Position numbers and translations under genes: made by a program
Notes under the pieces: model-generated
The model's database searches: none
Seen by the model: the letters and a program-made list of their open reading frames with translations, nothing else
Told to the model about the DNA's origin: nothing
Shown: positions 2,633-33,049 of the stretch, one piece after another
Layout: each line of letters begins with the position of its first letter
Position numbering within the stretch: the first letter of the stretch is position 1
Source of the DNA: Acidobacteriota bacterium
GTDB lineage: Bacteria; Acidobacteriota; Terriglobia; Acidiferrales; UBA7541
NCBI GenBank assembly: GCA_003224085.1
Contig: QHYK01000150.1
Location: 1-33,049, forward strand
Reading direction: 5' to 3'
DNA length: 33,049 bases

Positions 2633-3568
2633 ATGCGCGTAAAGGTCCTCGGATCTGCTGCCGGGGGCGGCTTTCCTCAATGGAATTGTTACTGTCCGAA
2701 CTGTAGCGCTTTGCGCCGCGGCAAACTGCAGGTTCGTCCGCGCACGCAAACGCAGGTTATTTTCTCTCTCGACTCCAAAGTTTGGTTTCTTCTTTGCGCT
2801 TCTCCCGACCTGCGGCAGCAGATCCTCTCGGCGCGCGAATTAGCTCTGCCAACCGATGATTCAGCCTCCTTTCCCATCGGGGGCGTGTTCCTGCCAAACG
2901 CCGATGTGGATTCCGTGATGGGCCTGCTCCACCTGCGCGAGTTCCAGAGTTTTTTTGTTTTTGCGACGCTCGGCGTCCAATGCGTGCTCCTCAAGGAGAA
3001 TCGCATCTTCCGCGTCTTGGAGCGCTCGAACCCGCCCGCGAAATGGCAAACGCTTTCCAGCAAGGGGCGTTTGGGTTGTCATTTGTCGGAGGATTCTTCC
3101 GGGCCGTCGGACTTTATTTGCGGCACCGTGCCACTGGGAGGCTGTTACCCGGACTACGTGAGCGAGGAAACGCTCCGCGCAGTTCCTGCCGAAGACGCGT
3201 CTGTCGGATTCGTGATGGAGCAAGACGACAAGCATCTCTTCTTTGCCCCGGCGATTTCGGGAGTTTCGGCAGTGTGGAAAGCCGCCGCGGAAAGGGCGGA
3301 CGTTTCCCTTATCGACGGCACTTTTTGGAGCGACGATGAGTTAATGCGCACGGGCCGCAGCCGAAGAACTGCGCGCGAAATCGGCCACTTGCCGCTCTCC
3401 GGCCCCGGCGGCCTGCTCGAACAATTTCCAGCCAAGGCAAAAGGCCGCAAAATCTTGATTCACATCAACAATACCAATCCCATCCTTGACGAAGACCGCG
3501 CGGAGCATCGTGTGGCGCTCGATGCCGGCTTCGAAATCGCCTACGATGGCATGGAGTTTCAACTATGA
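2633..3568 (+). CDS. pqqB: PQQ biosynthesis protein PqqB
   Basis: The 311-residue protein belongs to the metallo-beta-lactamase fold. It opens MRVKVLGSAAGGGFPQWNC followed by CPNC, the characteristic PqqB N terminus with its structural zinc cysteines. LIHINNTNPIL near the C terminus (about residue 277) is another PqqB signature. PqqB is a cytoplasmic non-haem iron hydroxylase-type enzyme acting on the cross-linked Glu-Tyr intermediate before the PqqC step. Length is normal for the family (about 300). Its stop overlaps the pqqC start in ATGA, so the two are translationally coupled. Confidence 0.95.
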   Translation: MRVKVLGSAAGGGFPQWNCYCPNCSALRRGKLQVRPRTQTQVIFSLDSKVWFLLCASPDLRQQILSARELALPTDDSASFPIGGVFLPNADVDSVMGLLHLREFQSFFVFATLGVQCVLLKENRIFRVLERSNPPAKWQTLSSKGRLGCHLSEDSSGPSDFICGTVPLGGCYPDYVSEETLRAVPAEDASVGFVMEQDDKHLFFAPAISGVSAVWKAAAERADVSLIDGTFWSDDELMRTGRSRRTAREIGHLPLSGPGGLLEQFPAKAKGRKILIHINNTNPILDEDRAEHRVALDAGFEIAYDGMEFQL

Positions 3569-4329
3569 CCGTGCCAAGGACAAAAGCAATCGAGACACCT
3601 CTGCTCTCCGAAGCCGAGTTCATCGCCGGCTTTCACGCCATCGGCGAAGAGCGCTATCACCACAAGCATCCGTTTCATCTGCTCATGCATGAGGGCAAAC
3701 TGACGCGTGGCCAGCTTCAGGCGTGGGCGCTGAACCGCTATTTCTATCAAAGCCGCATTCCTATTAAGGACGCCGCGATTCTCGCGCGAAGTGAAGATCC
3801 CGTTTTTCGCCTGGCTTGGCGCAAGCGCATTCTCGATCACGACGGCGACGGCACAAAACCAGGCGGCATCGAAAAGTGGCTGAAGCTGGTTGAAGCTGCC
3901 GGGCTTTCGCGCGATCTCGCCCTGCGCGGCGACGGCATCCTCCCTGCCACACGCTTTGCCGTGCAAGCCTATGTGGATTTCGTCTCCACTCGATCGCATC
4001 TTGAAGCCGTAGCTTCTTCGCTTACGGAGCTTTTTTCCCGCAAACTGATCGTTCTGCGCATGGACGGCTTACGCGAGCATTATCCCTGGCTTTCCGGCGG
4101 CCTTGATTATTTCACCGGACGCCTCACGCAAGCCCCCGAAGACGCGGAGTTCGCCCTGTCTTGGGTCGTAAAACACGCGCGCACGCCCGAGGAACAAGAC
4201 AAAGCTCACGCCGCCTTGCGCGCGAAGTGCGACATTTTGTGGGCCCAGCTCGACGCTCTTTATTTCGCATACGTGAACCCCGGCTGGCCTCCCCCCGGCG
4301 CTTTTCTGCCAACCAAGGAAACCGCATGA
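3565..4329 (+). CDS. pqqC: Pyrroloquinoline-quinone synthase PqqC
   Basis: The 254-residue all-helical protein is of the haem-oxygenase/TENA-like fold. It catalyses the final cofactorless ring closure and eight-electron oxidation of AHQQ to PQQ in the cytoplasm. Recognisable PqqC segments are ERYHHKHPFHLLMHEG (about residues 29-44), ALNRYFYQSRIPIKDA and ILDHDGDG. They contain the conserved His/Tyr/Arg residues of the substrate pocket. Length is typical. The start overlaps pqqB and the stop overlaps pqqD, both as ATGA, so the middle of the operon is strictly coupled. Confidence 0.95.
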   Translation: MTVPRTKAIETPLLSEAEFIAGFHAIGEERYHHKHPFHLLMHEGKLTRGQLQAWALNRYFYQSRIPIKDAAILARSEDPVFRLAWRKRILDHDGDGTKPGGIEKWLKLVEAAGLSRDLALRGDGILPATRFAVQAYVDFVSTRSHLEAVASSLTELFSRKLIVLRMDGLREHYPWLSGGLDYFTGRLTQAPEDAEFALSWVVKHARTPEEQDKAHAALRAKCDILWAQLDALYFAYVNPGWPPPGAFLPTKETA

Positions 4330-4604
4330 GCCTGGACTTGAACAGCCGGCCGCGGCTCGCCCCGGGGTGCCGCATGGGAGAGAACAACAATCAGCGCGTC
4401 CTGCTGATGCCCGAACGCGCCCTGCGCCTCAACGGTCCGAGCTTGGAAATCGTTTCGCGCTGCGACGGCAAGCACTCGGTGTCACAAATTATCGGAGAGT
4501 TGCAATTGCTCTACTCGAAAGCCGAGCCGCATAGAGTCGCACAGGACATCCTCGGCTATCTCGCGCTTCTGCAAAAAGAACGCGCCCTCGATTTTGAAAT
4601 GTAG
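4326..4604 (+). CDS. pqqD: PqqA-binding chaperone PqqD
   Basis: The 92-residue protein is a RiPP recognition element that binds the PqqA precursor and presents it to the radical-SAM enzyme PqqE. Family features visible are RPRLAPGCRM near the N terminus, then LLMPERALRLNG, a region that gives the beta strand and turn contacting PqqA, and the helical CDGKHSVSQII. The ATG at 4326 overlaps the pqqC stop (ATGA); a longer reading upstream would lie inside pqqC and is discarded. The stop codon TAG is the first three bases of a dispersed palindromic repeat lying between pqqD and pqqE. PqqD is separate here, not fused to PqqC or PqqE as in some genomes. Confidence 0.93.
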   Translation: MSLDLNSRPRLAPGCRMGENNNQRVLLMPERALRLNGPSLEIVSRCDGKHSVSQIIGELQLLYSKAEPHRVAQDILGYLALLQKERALDFEM

Positions 4605-4628
4605 CGGCCGCCTTCCGAGGCGGGCCGC
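4602..4628 (+). repeat. Dispersed palindromic (REP-like) element, copy 1
   Basis: TAGCGGCCGCCTTCC followed by GAGGCGGGCCGC forms a roughly 10-bp GC stem with loop TCCG and one bulged G. The same motif recurs at 12153 and 12927. Its first TAG is the pqqD stop codon and it fills most of the 36-base pqqD-pqqE gap, so it may stabilise mRNA or attenuate expression between these genes. Confidence 0.65.
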
Positions 4629-4640
4629 TCTTCGCTGTCC

Positions 4641-5750
4641 ATGATAACAAGCTTGCAAAACCCGCTTGCTCTCGTCGCCGAACTTACGCATCGCTGCCCC
4701 CTTCACTGCGTCTACTGCTCGAATCCTCTCGAATTGCAATCGCGTTCCACCGAGCTTTCCACGGAAGTTTGGTCACGCGTCTTCAAAGAAGCCGCCGCAG
4801 CCGGAGTTCTTCAAGCCGACTTGACCGGCGGCGAGCCTCTGGCGCGCCCAGACATCGTAGATCTTGTTCGCCACACCCGCGCTGTCGGCCTTTACGTCAG
4901 CCTCATCACTTCTGGCCTTCCACTCGACCAGGCCAAGCTCGATGCCCTAGTGCAAGCCGGACTCGATCATTTCCAGCTCAGCTTCCAGGGAGCGCGCGAA
5001 GAAACCTCGAACGACATTTCCGGCACAAAGTCCCATCAGCACAAGCTGCGCGTTCTCGAATGGCTCAAGCGCTATCGCATCGGCCTCACTCTGAATTTCG
5101 TCATCCATCGCCGCAATATTGACGAACTCGAGGAAATGCTCACCATTGTGGAAGAGTCCGGCGCGGGTTGCGTGGAATTTGCCAGCGTGCAGTATTACGG
5201 CTGGGCCTTTGCCAACCGCGAAAATCTTTTGCCCACGCGGGAGCAGCTGGACTATTGCGTTGAACGTTTGCATCGGGCGGAAAAAGAATTACAGGGCAAG
5301 ATTCGCGTCGTCTTCGTTGTGCCCGATTACTACGCTAAGTTCCCCAAGCCCTGCGTTGGCGGCTGGGGCCGCAAACTCATGCTCATCACGCCGAAGGGCG
5401 ATGCGCTTCCCTGCCACGCCGCCCCGGTTATTCCCGGTTTGAAATTTGAAAACGTGAAGAACCGCAGCTTGCGCGAAATTTGGGAACGCTCCGAAGCATT
5501 CCAGAAATTCCGCGGCGAAGATTGGATGCAGGAGCCGTGCAAATCCTGCGACCGCCGTGAACAAGACTTCGGCGGCTGTCGCTGCCAGGCGATGCTCGTT
5601 GCCGGCGACGCCGCCGCGACCGATCCTGTCTGCTCGCTCGCTCCGCAGCGTCCCAAAGTGGACGCCATCCTTGCCAAGATAAGTGGAGCACCTCCCGATC
5701 TGCGGCAACTCACAAGGTCCGATTGGCGCTATCGCCCGAACCCCTGGTAA
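4641..5750 (+). CDS. pqqE: PqqA peptide cyclase PqqE (radical SAM/SPASM)
   Basis: The 369-residue enzyme forms the Glu-Tyr carbon-carbon bond in PqqA. The radical-SAM cluster motif is C19-x3-C23-x2-C26 in ELTHRCPLHCVYC, with the GGEP SAM-binding motif at about residue 64. The C-terminal SPASM region shows LPCH (about 254) and CKSCDRREQDFGGCRCQ. The Asp there corresponds to the unusual aspartate ligand of the PqqE auxiliary cluster. A last Cys lies in PVCSLAP. Length matches other PqqE proteins. It follows pqqD after 36 bases occupied by a palindromic repeat. No PQQ-dependent dehydrogenase or pqqF-like protease is in the window, so the user enzyme must lie elsewhere. Confidence 0.95.
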   Translation: MITSLQNPLALVAELTHRCPLHCVYCSNPLELQSRSTELSTEVWSRVFKEAAAAGVLQADLTGGEPLARPDIVDLVRHTRAVGLYVSLITSGLPLDQAKLDALVQAGLDHFQLSFQGAREETSNDISGTKSHQHKLRVLEWLKRYRIGLTLNFVIHRRNIDELEEMLTIVEESGAGCVEFASVQYYGWAFANRENLLPTREQLDYCVERLHRAEKELQGKIRVVFVVPDYYAKFPKPCVGGWGRKLMLITPKGDALPCHAAPVIPGLKFENVKNRSLREIWERSEAFQKFRGEDWMQEPCKSCDRREQDFGGCRCQAMLVAGDAAATDPVCSLAPQRPKVDAILAKISGAPPDLRQLTRSDWRYRPNPW

Positions 5751-7284: not shown

Positions 7285-8058
7285 AGCCATGGAAGTTGTC
7301 AACGCAGCGCAGTACTGACGCGAGCGCCGATTTGGTCGTTCCAAGTAGAGCAGCCGTTGCCTGTTGTAAGCCCCGCGAGCCATCGCATAGCTGTGGACAT
7401 GAACACCAAGACGTTCAACTTCTTCAATGGAAGAAGGTGGTCTCAGGTGTCGTTGCCTCGTCCTTGGTTGGCTGCACTGTCAAAGCTCCGCACCGCCCAC
7501 AAGCGTTTGAGCCGTTGTGAGCAGGGTTCTAAGAACCGCGAGAAGGCGCGTAGCAGGGTCGCTCATATTTGTCAGCGAGTAACCGATCTGCGCACGGATT
7601 TTCTCCAGAAATTGAGCACTCAACTGATTCACAAAAACCAAGTGATTATGGTTGAGACGCTCGGCACCAAGAACATACTTAAGAATCGCCGCTTAGCCAG
7701 AGCCATCTCGGATGCGGGCTTCGGCGAGTTCGTTGGCATGTTGGAATACCAGTGCAAGTGGCCTGGAAGAACGCTCGTCAAAGTAGATAGGTTCTTCCCG
7801 TCATCAAAGTTGTGCTGCATTTGTCACCAAAAGAATGTAGACCTCAAACTCCAAGACCGTTGGACGTGTTCGAGTTGCCATACCGAACATCAGCGGGACG
7901 AGAATGCCGTCGTAAACATTTTCGTCGAAGGTTTGAGAATCTTAGCCGAGGGACGCTCGGTATTAGCCTGTGGAGGCACGGTAAGACCTGAACGCGAGTT
8001 TAGGCGTGTGCCCGTGAAGCAGGAAACATCGTCGGAGGTATGTGGCCATGTCGCATAG
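7285..8058 (+). pseudogene. tnpB: TnpB (OrfB) RNA-guided nuclease, N-terminus missing
   Basis: The open frame shows the RuvC core of TnpB. It has IAVDMNTKTF (RuvC-I Asp), VIMVETLGTKN (RuvC-II Glu), a zinc ribbon CxxC...CSSC around residues 170-190 of the 233-residue reading from TTG 7357, and QRDENAVVNI (RuvC-III Asp). A conserved GFGEFVGMLEYQCKWPG segment precedes the ribbon. Homology continues upstream of 7357 (WSFQVEQPLP) to about 7300 with no start codon, then hits a stop at 7282. The roughly 170 N-terminal residues that bind guide RNA and the TAM are gone. All three catalytic acidic positions seem intact, but without the N-terminal domains it should not be an active guided nuclease. The nearest possible starts (TTG at 7357) would give a C-terminal fragment. 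Confidence 0.8.
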
Positions 8059-28837: not shown

Positions 28838-28950
28838 ACCCAGGATCGCCGCAAGCTCATTTTGCGCCACTAGTACCAAAGTCCTAGTTGTAGTTGCGAG
28901 ACGCCCTGCCGTAGTTGTCTCCAAGGGAGTCCTGCGGCCACCTAAAATCA

Positions 28951-30780
28951 ATGGAGATGCCGCCCACCTCTCAATCTCCTTGGGCCCTCTGGAAACGCCT
29001 GCGCGCAGGGCACGTGCGCATTCTCTGGCTCGTTCTTGGCGCACTCCTTATGGTCAGCGTTCTGCCACTGGGCCTGTATCATCGCCTTGTACTTCAACTC
29101 AGCCAGGACAAACTGGTGGACCAGGAGCGCGTTCAGCAGACCGACCTGGTGCGCTCGTTGGTGCTCGAAATCCAGCACTTTGAATCCAACTTGACGCAGC
29201 AACTCCTGAGCGAAAGGCAAATTCTGGACCTCACGGAAACGGGGCGGCGCACAAGCCTCATTGACGATGTGGAAGATCCAGTCGCGGAGCCCAAGGTCAC
29301 CCATCTGCTTGAGAATTTCGTTGAAAGCAACCCGAACACGTTTATCTACTTAACGGCCGTAGGCAAATCCGGCCGAGGGACGAGCGCATCACAAGGACAT
29401 TTTCGCGCCGAGCAAGACCCGTTCGTAGCCAAGGCATTGCAGCGCGCGTTTGTCACCTGTTTGCAATCGCAGCAGCTACAAGTCACCAAATTCCGCAGCG
29501 ATCCGTTGGCGTTGGCACCCGACAACCGGCCGGCGTTTGTGGTGGCCGTTCCGCTGAAAGACGCGAACGACAATTTCACCGGCATGCTTGCTGCCGTCGT
29601 TTCGCTGGAACCCATCCTTCGGGGCTTGCAGGACGCCAGCGTTCGCGGCCGCTCCGTTTTTCTCGTGGACCACAACGGGAAAATCGTAGCGCATCATGAC
29701 ACCAACAATTTTGTTCCCGGCGCGGACGCGCAAGGCAACGCGCTGGTCGACCAGGTGCGCGCGCTCCCTCAGGACCTTCGCAACACCGCGACGATGCGCT
29801 TTTCCGAGACTGTCAAAAAGCGTTCCGTCGAAATGGTCGGCACCTACAGCACGTTTCCCGAACTGAATTGGGCGGTCATCGCAGAGCGGCGCCTCGACGC
29901 GGCGGAGAGCGACACGGGTGTCGACGAACTGAACCGACAAGCGCTGGTGTTTGCCAGCATCGTGGTGTTGGCCGCCATCGTCGTCGGATACTTTTTTGCC
30001 GTGGGCATCAGCGGACCCATCCGCGGGCTTGCGGCTTCCACGCGCGCTATCAGCCGCGGTGAATTTCATCAGCGCTCCGTGGCGCGCGGAGCCCTGGAAA
30101 TCAGCGAGCTCGCCGAGAATTTCAACAAGATGGCCGGCGACATCGAGGAATTCATCGAGAAGCTGAAAGAAGCGGCGGAAGAAAACCGCGAACTGTTTAT
30201 CGGCTCGATTCGCATGCTCGCCGCGGCCATCGACGAAAAGGACCCGTACACGCGCGGTCACTCCGGCCGCGTGGCGAAGTATTCAACGCTAATCGGGCAG
30301 GAACTTGGCCTTTCCGCCGAGGAACTGGACAAGCTGCGTATTTCCGCTCTGTTGCACGACGTGGGAAAAATCGGCGTCGAAGATCGCGTCTTGAAAAAGC
30401 CGGGTGCCCTTACACCCGAAGAATTCGCCTTGATGAAACAACACACGGTGAAAGGCGCGAACATCATGCGCCCGGTTTCGCAACTGAAAGAGGTGCTGCC
30501 GGGCATCGAGTTGCACCACGAGCATATAGACGGCCGCGGCTATCCCTATGGATTGTCGGGCGCGCAGATTCCGCTGATGGCGCGCATCATCGGCGTGGCC
30601 GATACGTTCGATGCGATGACCACCAACCGTCCCTATCAGACAGCCATGGATCTCGACTATGCGATGGAACGCATTCGCGCGCTGGCCGGCACGAAGTTCG
30701 ACACCGTGGTCGTGAATGCGCTGGAATCCGCGGTCCAGCACGGCAAGCTGCGCCTTAGCGCCGTCGAAGTCCACGTCTAG
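28951..30780 (+). CDS. Membrane sensor with HAMP and HD-GYP phosphodiesterase domain
   Basis: The 609-residue protein has a TM helix at about 22-45 (ILWLVLGALLMVSVLPLGL). A periplasmic sensor region of about 300 residues, Cache-like, follows (SVFLVDHNGKIVAHHD, TYSTFPELNWAVIAE), then a second TM (about 335-360) and a HAMP segment (SGPIRGLAASTRAISRGEF). A C-terminal HD-GYP domain has HSGRVAKYS, LLHDVGKIG and HHEHIDGRGYPYGL with the intact HD and GYP motifs. HD-GYP enzymes hydrolyse cyclic di-GMP. The upstream TTG 28915 is less likely than ATG 28951 or 28957. A gap of 113 bases separates it from gpsA, so it may have its own promoter. Confidence 0.9.
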   Translation: MEMPPTSQSPWALWKRLRAGHVRILWLVLGALLMVSVLPLGLYHRLVLQLSQDKLVDQERVQQTDLVRSLVLEIQHFESNLTQQLLSERQILDLTETGRRTSLIDDVEDPVAEPKVTHLLENFVESNPNTFIYLTAVGKSGRGTSASQGHFRAEQDPFVAKALQRAFVTCLQSQQLQVTKFRSDPLALAPDNRPAFVVAVPLKDANDNFTGMLAAVVSLEPILRGLQDASVRGRSVFLVDHNGKIVAHHDTNNFVPGADAQGNALVDQVRALPQDLRNTATMRFSETVKKRSVEMVGTYSTFPELNWAVIAERRLDAAESDTGVDELNRQALVFASIVVLAAIVVGYFFAVGISGPIRGLAASTRAISRGEFHQRSVARGALEISELAENFNKMAGDIEEFIEKLKEAAEENRELFIGSIRMLAAAIDEKDPYTRGHSGRVAKYSTLIGQELGLSAEELDKLRISALLHDVGKIGVEDRVLKKPGALTPEEFALMKQHTVKGANIMRPVSQLKEVLPGIELHHEHIDGRGYPYGLSGAQIPLMARIIGVADTFDAMTTNRPYQTAMDLDYAMERIRALAGTKFDTVVVNALESAVQHGKLRLSAVEVHV

Positions 30781-31135
30781 CCTCTTTAACCGGCCAACCG
30801 CATTGAGGTGCATGCAGAAGCGCGTATGGAATGACGAGAAGCAGAAGGCTCCGAAATCTTACAGGCCATCCGTTGTTTTCTCCTGCATCGTCGTTGCCCT
30901 GCCGCGGCTTGAAGATGTAGGAGCTTCGGAGTTTGCAGGAGGCAGGCTTGGCGGTCCTTTGTTTCGAGATGGCCGACTATGGAATTGTTCTTTTTATATG
31001 GGCCGTACTCCTCACTTTTTCCTGTCGACGCACTGCAACGGCTCTTCCTGCCGCTGGCGATAGGGATAAGCCTTCGCCGCGTTGCCGCCGTCAACTTGGA
31101 GAACATTTCTAAGCTAGAAAACAGGGAAACCACTT
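30781..31135. other. Gene-free stretch before the insertion sequence
   Basis: These 355 bases between the HD-GYP gene and the inferred left end of the insertion sequence contain no supported gene. Short frames on both strands have no recognisable content. The stretch is somewhat richer in A/T than its left neighbour. Confidence 0.6.
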
Positions 31136-31160
31136 AGTAACCCCGCAAAAATAACTGCAC
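31136..31160 (+). repeat. Candidate left terminal inverted repeat
   Basis: CGCAAAAATAACTGCAC (31144-31160) pairs with the right end at 13 of 17 positions; the eight bases outside match at about half. It lies 180 bases before the first transposase frame. Confidence 0.55.
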
Positions 31161-31295
31161 GATTCTGAGCGTCACTAAGGCAATATGCCACGCCATTCTC
31201 GCAGGGGGCGTCGGGGACAAGCGTAGCGCTTTGGGCTCTCCAACTGGGCTTTCCGATGCTCCCATCGGGCTGGGAGAGACGCCCTCAATTCTGCT

Positions 31296-31333
31296 ATAGT
31301 TCCGCTTTGATATTTGATGAGAGGCGGAACTAT
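31296..31333. promoter_or_regulatory. Inverted repeat ending six bases before the first IS frame
   Basis: ATAGTTCCGC and GCGGAACTAT are perfect 10-bp arms around 18 AT-rich bases, ending six bases before ATG 31340. It may be an operator for the winged-helix-like N-terminal domain encoded just downstream, or an mRNA hairpin that hides the start in read-through transcripts. Confidence 0.5.
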
Positions 31334-31339
31334 GGCATT

Positions 31340-32092
31340 ATGAGAACACCCTCCTTCCACTCCGAGCGTTTGCGTGAGTTCCTGCGCTTGAAGAAAATCG
31401 CCACCCTGCCCGAGTTGAAAGAAGTCTTGGGGACCAAAGTCGATACCACGGTGTTTCGCAAGTTGAAAGAACTCTCCTATCGCTCCAGCTACTCCCATCG
31501 CGGCCGCTACTACACCCTCGCCGAGATCCCGGTGTTTGATCCTGCGGGCCTGTGGTCTTTTCAGGCGGTGTGGTTCTCTCGCTGGGGGAATCTAGTCACC
31601 ACCCTGGAAGCCCTGGTCAACGGTGCTCCCCAAGGCTACTTCGCCCAGGAATTGCAGCAGGTCCTGCACGTCGAAGTGAAAGATGCACTGCTGCAGTTGG
31701 TCGAGCAACGTCGCGTTGCCCGCCAGCAGGTCACCGGATTGTTTCTGTACTGTTCTCAGGATGCAGCGTTGCGCCGGCGCCAAGTGCTGGCACGACAGGC
31801 TCTTTCGGAAGTCCCTGGGAGCGCTTCTGCCGAGATCTCTGCGGAGGAATTAAAGGCCTCACTGGTCCTGTTCTCTAGCTTGCTGGATGAGCGCCAGCGC
31901 CGTTTGTATGCCGGCCTGGAATCGCTGAAGTTGGGCCAAGGGGGCGATCAGCGACTAGCCGAGTTGCTCCACCTGGATGCGCACACGGTGGCACGCGGAC
32001 GAAAGGAGTTGCTGGCACAGGAAGTGGAGTGGGAGCGGGTACGCAAACGGGGCGGGGGCCGCAAGCCCGTGGAAAAAAAACGCCCCAGGTAA
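31340..32092 (+). CDS. IS frame A: winged-helix-like domain plus transposase N-terminus
   Basis: The 250-residue product starts MRTPSFHSERLREFLRLKKI. A region of about 170 residues looks like tandem winged-helix DNA-binding folds (ATLPELKEVLGTKVDTTVFRK, then YFAQELQQVLHVEVKDALLQL with RRVARQQVTGLFLY). It is followed by the usual N-terminal part of ISAzo13-family transposases (LLDERQRRLYAGLESLKLGQGG, then ELLHLDAHTVARGRKEL and GGGRKPVEKK). The frame stops at 32090, ten bases after an A8 run. The N-terminal 170 residues are additional to the transposase pattern I know for this family. ATG 31340 is chosen because the longer reading crosses the upstream palindrome. Confidence 0.78.
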   Translation: MRTPSFHSERLREFLRLKKIATLPELKEVLGTKVDTTVFRKLKELSYRSSYSHRGRYYTLAEIPVFDPAGLWSFQAVWFSRWGNLVTTLEALVNGAPQGYFAQELQQVLHVEVKDALLQLVEQRRVARQQVTGLFLYCSQDAALRRRQVLARQALSEVPGSASAEISAEELKASLVLFSSLLDERQRRLYAGLESLKLGQGGDQRLAELLHLDAHTVARGRKELLAQEVEWERVRKRGGGRKPVEKKRPR

Positions 32093-33033
32093 TCGCTCAA
32101 ATCGAGAGGCTGTTGGAACACGATACGGCTGGCGATCCGATGAGCCGCCTCAGGTGGACCCACAAGACCACGGCCAAGATCGCCGGGCAACTCCAACGGC
32201 TGGGCATCCGCGTCGGCGCACGCACGGTCGCCCGATTGCTCGACCAACTGCATTTCTCGCTCCGTGTGAATTGCAAAAAGATTGCCGCTGGAAGCCGCTC
32301 GCTACGCGACCGACAGTTCCGTAATATTGCCCGAGTGCGACATCGCTTCTGCCGTCACGGCAACCCCATTATCAGTGTCGATGCCAAGAAACGGGAGCTG
32401 GTGGGCAACTTCAAAAATGGCGGTCGGAAGTGGGGGCGCGTCCCCACCGCGGTCAACGACCACGACTTTCGTTCCCTCGCCAAGGGCGTCGCCCTCCCCT
32501 TCGGCATTTATGATCCCCAAGCCAACCGTGGTTCCGTGTTCGTCGGCGTCAGTCACGAGACCTCCGCTTTTGCGGTCACTTCCATCTCCCACTGGTGGAG
32601 TCGGGAAGGACGCCGGCGCTACCCAAACGCTCAGCACTTGCTGATCCTGGCCGACACCGGGGGCAGCAATTCCGCCACACGTGGCGCTTGGAAGGACCAA
32701 CTCCAGCAACACCTCTGTGACCGATTGGGGCTCACCGTCAGCGTGGCCCACTATCCCACCGGCGCCTCCAAGTACAACCCCATTGAACGCCGCCTGTTCA
32801 GCCAGATCAGCAAGAACTGGGCTGCCGAACCTCTCACCGACTACGACAAGATCCTCCGCTTGATCCGCAAAACCACTACCACCACGGGACTCAGAGTTCG
32901 TGCCTACCTGGACACCAAGGACTACCCGCTCAAAGTCAAACCGTCTGCCCAAAGGTTACGAGAACTCCGAATCACCCGACACACCACCCTCCCAAAGTGG
33001 AACTACACCATCGCCCCCTCCAATGCGAAGTAA
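32029..33033 (+). CDS. IS frame B: DDE catalytic part of ISAzo13-type transposase
   Basis: This frame carries the catalytic core (Rhodopirellula-transposase DDE type). It has DPMSRLRWTHKTTAKIAGQL, ARTVARLL, first Asp in ISVDAKKRELVGNFKN, second Asp in LILADTGGSN, Glu in NPIERRLFS, and the terminal TTTTTGLRVRAYLD and WNYTIAP motifs. The reading from 32029 begins with an unrelated out-of-frame stretch. True homology starts at TPQVIAQIE (32080), exactly where frame A would continue after a one-base slip back. The joined protein would be 564 residues with D348, D439 and E483. The frame itself has no credible independent start, so it is likely expressed only as a fusion. Confidence 0.82.
   Translation: MGAGTQTGRGPQARGKKTPQVIAQIERLLEHDTAGDPMSRLRWTHKTTAKIAGQLQRLGIRVGARTVARLLDQLHFSLRVNCKKIAAGSRSLRDRQFRNIARVRHRFCRHGNPIISVDAKKRELVGNFKNGGRKWGRVPTAVNDHDFRSLAKGVALPFGIYDPQANRGSVFVGVSHETSAFAVTSISHWWSREGRRRYPNAQHLLILADTGGSNSATRGAWKDQLQQHLCDRLGLTVSVAHYPTGASKYNPIERRLFSQISKNWAAEPLTDYDKILRLIRKTTTTTGLRVRAYLDTKDYPLKVKPSAQRLRELRITRHTTLPKWNYTIAPSNAK
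32073..32080 (+). promoter_or_regulatory. A8 slippery run joining the two IS frames
   Basis: GTG GAA AAA AAA then CGC in frame A. A -1 ribosomal slip, or insertion of one A by polymerase slippage, continues as ACG CCC CAG in frame B and restores the family's uninterrupted sequence. A G-rich tract (GGGGCGGGGGCC) lies about 14 bases upstream. A simple one-base deletion mutation is the alternative. Confidence 0.6.
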
Positions 33034-33049
33034 TTCTTGCGCCGATCCT
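33025..33049 (-). repeat. Candidate right terminal inverted repeat
   Basis: Read on the minus strand, CGCAAGAATTACTTCGC (33041 to 33025) mirrors the left end at 13 of 17 bases. The transposase TAA (33031-33033) lies inside it. The outer end of the repeat reaches or passes the window edge. Confidence 0.55.

Follow-up and report, generated by a model that had tools for sequence, protein, structure and literature searches.

Elements of the ISAzo13 family usually encode their transposase in a single uninterrupted open reading frame (ORF). Transposases made by frameshifting, with a DNA-binding product encoded upstream, are already well known from other families. IS3- and IS1-type elements are described with a DNA-binding upstream protein, a catalytic domain in the -1 frame and an A-rich heptamer (PMC5009743), and IS630-type elements with A-runs and both shift directions within one family (PMC3711429). 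The families named as users of frameshifting in the available part of PMC5009743 are IS1, IS3, IS5 and IS630, and ISAzo13 is not mentioned in that part. Searches of the open-access literature for ISAzo13 together with frameshifting retrieved one article naming both (PMC9569102), in unrelated passages of the text available, and none was found for Rhodopirellula transposases together with frameshifting.

The stretch of DNA analysed here, referred to as the window, comprises 33,049 nt of an Acidobacteriota genome (contig QHYK01000150.1) and carries at its right end a complete insertion sequence, 1.9 kb long, from an ISAzo13 branch that is N-extended and occupies two frames. With a probability of about 0.8, we consider that a conserved programmed frameshift parts a repressor-like protein (frame A) from the transposase, as in IS1 and IS3. 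Ordinary translation of frame A would yield a 250-aa protein with two winged helices and the transposase helix-turn-helix (HTH) region, while slippage by -1 on the in-phase heptamer A_AAA_AAA of an A8 run would join this region to the DDE domain and produce the transposase. Such slippage presumably occurs in the cell and would keep the transposase scarce, and the frame A protein would bind an inverted repeat before its own start codon and repress the promoter. Comparison at the level of sequence established that the gene is split, which way the frame shifts in most relatives, that an A-run is present, that selection acts on the two frames and that an inverted repeat precedes the start codon; the repressor role of the frame A protein we infer from its predicted fold and that repeat.

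The element resembles the ISAzo13 family (NF033519, PF07592) in its full DDE domain, its HTH region and its size of 1.9 kb with short inverted repeats, but sampled single-frame members have 402-418 aa, whereas the N-extended branch is about 170 residues longer and occupies two frames. With the programmed -1 elements of IS1 and IS3 it shares overlapping ORFs, the prevailing -1 direction (72 of 82 elements) and the heptamer (67 of those 72), all kept in relatives; unlike them, it belongs to another transposase family, bears a tandem winged-helix module and has no detected downstream stimulator structure. An A-run and both directions are common to IS630-type and N-extended ISAzo13 elements, the latter being mostly -1. 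As far as the open-access literature goes (ISfinder lay outside its scope), the two-frame ISAzo13 branch, its tandem winged-helix module, the associated inverted repeat and the sharing of the module with a second transposase are new. The N-extended branch would add ISAzo13 to the frameshifting families, and the module together with the inverted repeat makes repression directly testable. Since each frame alone looks incomplete, automatic annotation may call such copies broken.

Organization of the window element

The whole element spans positions 31137-33048 (1912 bp), its ends being set by comparison with the relatives L036 and L038 and with multi-copy relatives. It is bounded by imperfect 18-bp terminal inverted repeats, the left one at 31137..31154 (+ strand) and the right one at 33031..33048 (- strand), which match at 12 of 18 positions. 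The TTA at 31134..31136, immediately to the left, is the probable left copy of a 3-bp target duplication; the right copy consists of base 33049 and the next two bases on contig C84 (positions 145-146 of L003). Contig QHYK01000150.1 ends at the right side of the element, and its last 144 bases are the first 144 of contig C84. The triplets flanking both sides are identical for the window element, for L038 and for three of the four inspected copies in genome G587, and mismatched in L036 and L176.

Frame A (31340..32092, + strand, 250 aa) runs from the ATG at 31340 to the TAA at 32090-32092. From sequence, profile matches and AlphaFold2 it is laid out as a tandem winged-helix module (residues ~8-150) followed by the ISAzo13 HTH region (~168-225). 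Frame B is open up to the TAA at 33031-33033, a stop codon that sits within the right terminal repeat, and the part of it entering the fusion (32080..33033, + strand, 317 aa) is the DDE catalytic domain (PF07592, E 7.1e-112). Both frames meet at the A8 slip site (32073..32080, + strand), which holds the in-phase heptamer A_AAA_AAA and where the passage from A to B requires a -1 shift: frame A reads GTG GAA AAA AAA CGC CCC AGG TAA and frame B AAA AAA ACG CCC CAG. The computed -1 fusion has 247 + 317 = 564 residues, the length given in the original prediction for a one-base slip at A8. That prediction had also described frame A as about 170 winged-helix-like residues plus the transposase N terminus, and frame B as an intact DDE core, and the predicted fold and the profile matches bear out both descriptions.

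The NCBIfam model of the ISAzo13 transposase (NF033519, 387 positions) is divided between the two frames, with frame A residues 180-249 corresponding to positions 3-75 and frame B residues 30-353 to positions 63-387. With frame B by itself, the score for this model is 391 bits (cut-off 200), and the IS630 model NF033545 is matched weakly (38 bits, cut-off 100). About 170 N-terminal residues of frame A fall outside both NF033519 and PF07592. The one uninterrupted ORF of the ISAzo13 family is lacking in the window copy, in line with the sampled N-extended branch, and the assignment made here extends only to a variant branch linked to the family through its catalytic domain. The source genome also harbours a second copy, 68% identical at the nucleotide level and disrupted close to its 3' end, as well as fragments; the only intact copy found in that genome is that of the window.

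Split frames and A-runs among relatives

Frame B served as query against 396 genomes from this phylum and had matches in 29; all eight loci of this search whose N extension reaches the join are split, the window and the second copy in its genome included. Frame A alone was used as query as well, and the best 80 of 269 relatives in named genomes, plus loci of close genomes, were taken. The resulting 94 rows were reduced to 89 by removal of 5 duplicates and to 82 by removal of 7 ambiguous rows (L037, L041, L046, L077, L087, L118, L119); among these, L077 is nominally in frame 0 but uninformative, its scores being tied at 24. Also excluded from the 82 was L035, in which a contig end truncates the N part; it has the same A8 in -1. 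Of the final elements, 72 plus 2 from close genomes came from the frame A query and 8, including the window, from frame B; since 74 of 82 were fetched with frame A alone and 8 with frame B, a fused gene would have turned up too.

Among these 82 unambiguous N-extended elements, which derive from the best 80 of 269 relatives and the other loci, the shift needed is -1 in 72 and +1/-2 in 10, and none scores as a single in-frame join. L048, counted among the 72, is continuous across the run itself and loses the frame again within about 25 codons downstream. A run of A7-A10 lies at the join in 75 of the 82; it is A8 in 60, A9 in 9 and A10 in 1, and A7 was recorded in three -1 members. Elsewhere in these elements (127,684 nt) there are 25 A-runs of at least 7, so that about 0.2 would be expected in a 12-nt window for all 82 elements together. 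The join keeps A7-A10 in 20 of the 24 elements with at least 60% GC, where AAA accounts for 27% of the lysine codons of the N ORF, and the position of the run is maintained at frame A identities of 42-85%. An in-phase heptamer is present in 67 of the 72 elements with -1 (A_AAA_AAA in 65 and C_CCA_AAA in 2) and absent from the other five. The original prediction proposed to look for conservation of the A-run and the out-of-frame join in relatives, and both were thus encountered; it had named relatives with one uninterrupted frame as the finding that would speak against it, and none of the 82 unambiguous N-extended elements is of this kind, the single-frame relatives being without the extension.

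Values of dN/dS between the window copy and L036 are ~0.24 for frame A and 0.13 for frame B, and those between the window copy and L038 are 0.26 and 0.10, respectively; judged from these values, purifying selection acts on frame A and frame B alike among close relatives. Six N-extended copies with an A9 join in -1 (L167, L171, L174, L176, L177 and L178) lie on one contig of genome G587, which suggests recent activity of the element in that genome.

The nine sampled single-frame ISAzo13 transposases consist of one ORF of 402-418 aa without the N extension. None of them has an A-run of at least 6 at the join position, although L021 has two elsewhere and the GGGR landmark was not found in L023. 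The phylogenetic tree was built with these nine controls and the 63 of 82 N-extended rows whose downstream (C) frame has at least 250 aa, the frame being shorter in 19, partly through contig ends; L063 and L102 are placed on very long branches. A branch with support 100/99 separates the nine single-frame proteins from all 63 N-extended rows. The N-extended side covers 13 phylum labels in the tree, mostly of metagenome bins, some of them perhaps mis-assigned. As the nine transposases without the extension are single-frame and the 82 with it are split, in this sample the split accompanies the N extension.

Winged-helix module and inverted repeat

AlphaFold2 (68 sequences) gave a mean pLDDT of at least 94 for each ten-residue block from 11 to 150, with a pTM of 0.62 for the whole. 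The frame A extension is confidently predicted to form two tandem winged helices ahead of the transposase HTH region, so that the model supports the earlier guess of a winged-helix fold. Fold search gave generic winged-helix matches (best Z 9.2), the second domain aligning with ArsR- and MarR-type repressors, among others, alignments that tell of fold and not of function; Foldseek found no match of the module at E ≤0.001. A sequence search of solved structures with the module retrieved nothing meaningful (best E 0.17). The Pfam matches of 68 module members were weak and scattered, with DUF6400 in 13 (best E 0.00042) and HTH models in a few, and given this pattern no Pfam family appears to cover the module. 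In PHROGs the HTH part matches phrog_34518 (E 5.9e-8, unknown function), with weak matches elsewhere. Three protein scans of viral contigs, with frame B, the module and the ORF of the second family described below, found no relatives, and the frame A query of plasmids gave one record, whose best place covers residues 171-226 only. Free-standing module genes that might act as cellular regulators were also looked for, with no clear case: L160 resembles a decayed element, and L175, although it continues in frame, is truncated.

A profile of the module only (E ~1e-37 to 1e-42) located the module upstream of a different ORF in other genomes. This second, transposase-like ORF shows a zinc-ribbon-like CPxC motif and a HVDATGEGG-like motif, and has no meaningful similarity to ISAzo13. 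In all six distinct elements (L168, L172, L162, L163, L169 and L189) module and second ORF are split by -1 at A-rich sites, which include A_AAA_AAG and A_AAA_AAA; the second ORF is truncated in L163 and L169. Models of IS66, ISNCY and MULE resemble it weakly and none could be assigned, and the ISKra4 profile NF033572 had no match at the second-family places in genomes G691, G722, G495 and G207. This family may be related to the ISMich2 group, which is Mutator-like and near ISKra4 and for which a conserved -1 split is described in the available part of PMC3942029.

Upstream of frame A, an inverted repeat was located with its left arm at 31292..31305 (+ strand, TGCTATAGTTCCGC) and its right arm at 31324..31337 (+ strand, GCGGAACTATGGCA), the latter ending 2 nt before the ATG. 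The left arm contains TATAGT (31295-31300), which we take to be a -10-like box; a scan of positions 31130-33049 for sigma-70 promoters gave 0 full promoters (0.4 in shuffles), leaving the -10-like box without a -35. In the main test, carried out on 77 of the 82 elements, a repeat score of at least 8 upstream of the start was reached by 58, compared with 2.9% of shuffled sequences and 35 of 752 windows taken from within the elements. Among these 58, the axis of the repeat lies 24.5-26 nt ahead of the start in 40, the right arm ends 0-2 nt from the start in 47 and a TATAGT-like box is within the left arm in 41. The arm sequences vary among lineages yet remain complementary. In a parallel 200-nt test, 41 of 74 N-extended elements scored at least 10, versus 2 of 222 shuffles. 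None of the nine single-frame controls exceeded 7 in the parallel test, their start codons being uncertain, L015 offering only 89 nt and the N terminus of L023 not being recognised. Four of six second-family elements scored 9 in this test, a value also reached by shuffles for L169 and L189. An earlier control, which used many start codons and a different region and was superseded by the parallel test, had given a score of 9 in two of six listed single-frame loci, L011 (GC-rich) and L021, and the earlier test of the second family had given 9-10 in L162, L163, L168 and L169 and ≤7 in L160, L172, L175 and L189.

The simplest reading of the repeat is that of a candidate operator for the frame A protein. 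An RNA hairpin is a genuine possibility too, at rather less than even odds: transcripts entering from outside would include the two arms and so mask the start codon, whereas those from the element's own promoter would begin inside the left arm or beyond it and remain free. Protection from outside transcription is known in IS10 and IS50. A hairpin of this kind agrees with the -10-like box that 41 of 58 elements have in the left arm and with the right arm ending just before the start in 47 of 58; against it, the repeat accompanies the winged-helix module, with a score of 9 in four of six second-family elements and at most 7 in the nine controls without the module. The candidate operator and the hairpin may coexist. 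It is almost an even bet that a self-regulating cassette, composed of the inverted repeat at the start, the tandem winged-helix protein and, where the ORF of that protein ends, the slippery A-run, is common to two transposase families without detectable similarity to one another. Were this sharing real, transposon control would travel as a module that depends neither on the catalytic domain nor on the domain coming after the module.

Passage from frame A to frame B

For the majority of the elements a ribosomal -1 shift is favoured on sequence grounds; slippage of the RNA polymerase may occur instead, with a higher likelihood in the small number of members in +1 phase. In the latter mechanism the polymerase would add or drop an A within the run and the fusion would be translated from the changed mRNA with no shift of the ribosome, an explanation to which we would give a sizeable chance, if somewhat under one half. 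Runs of 8-9 A in IS elements are ascribed to such slippage in the available text of PMC1088944, and mixed directions, here 72 versus 10, are taken as its sign in that of the GeneTack paper (PMC3711429). Four +1/-2 members have intact ORFs (L010, L012, L056 and L083), with A8 or A9 from the first codon position, and two of them, L056 and L083, have a common A8 in the +1 phase, their proteins being 52% (N) and 56% (C) identical, which also favours transcriptional slippage. The same holds for the lack of a detected RNA stimulator: structure downstream of the run gave no signal (0-60 nt, mean z -0.33, not beyond background). On the other hand, the predominance of -1, of A8 rather than A9 or longer runs, and the three -1 members with A7 argue against slippage of the polymerase, as does the in-phase heptamer, which includes the C_CCA_AAA of L097 and L100, near-identical copies in one genome with no A-run above 4. 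Upstream of the run there is a Shine-Dalgarno-like stretch (mean energy -9.75 versus -4.94); because it coincides with the GGGR protein motif, in which GGA/GGG use (87 of 232) is not above that elsewhere (530 of 1339), without codon preference, it is explicable by the motif.

That frame B is instead made by internal initiation, giving two separate cooperating proteins, is improbable. At 32029, ahead of the run, frame B of the window copy contains a GTG, and this copy is one of 13 elements of the 82 with some ATG, GTG or TTG there, but in the other 69 the C frame has no such codon from its preceding stop up to the run, and the NF033519 homology continues across the join.

Even less probable is that an indel in the A-run disrupted the frame and made the window copy a pseudogene, since, although homopolymers are prone to mutation and some relatives look decayed (7 ambiguous among 89 unique rows, short C frames in 19 of 82), none of the 82 scores in frame, L048 breaking again downstream, the position of the run is steady over wide divergence and dN/dS is well below 1 in both frames.

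Other genes were recognised in the window apart from the element. A Cache-HAMP-HD sensor protein is encoded at 28915-30780, upstream of the insertion element. An IS605-type TnpB-like ORF of 233 aa (7357-8058; PF07282, and PF01385 from profile position 15) is probably a fragment. Positions 2633-5750 encode a metallo-hydrolase (PF12706) and a radical-SAM/SPASM protein with ORFs between them, a gene row that presumably resembles a pqq biosynthesis cluster.
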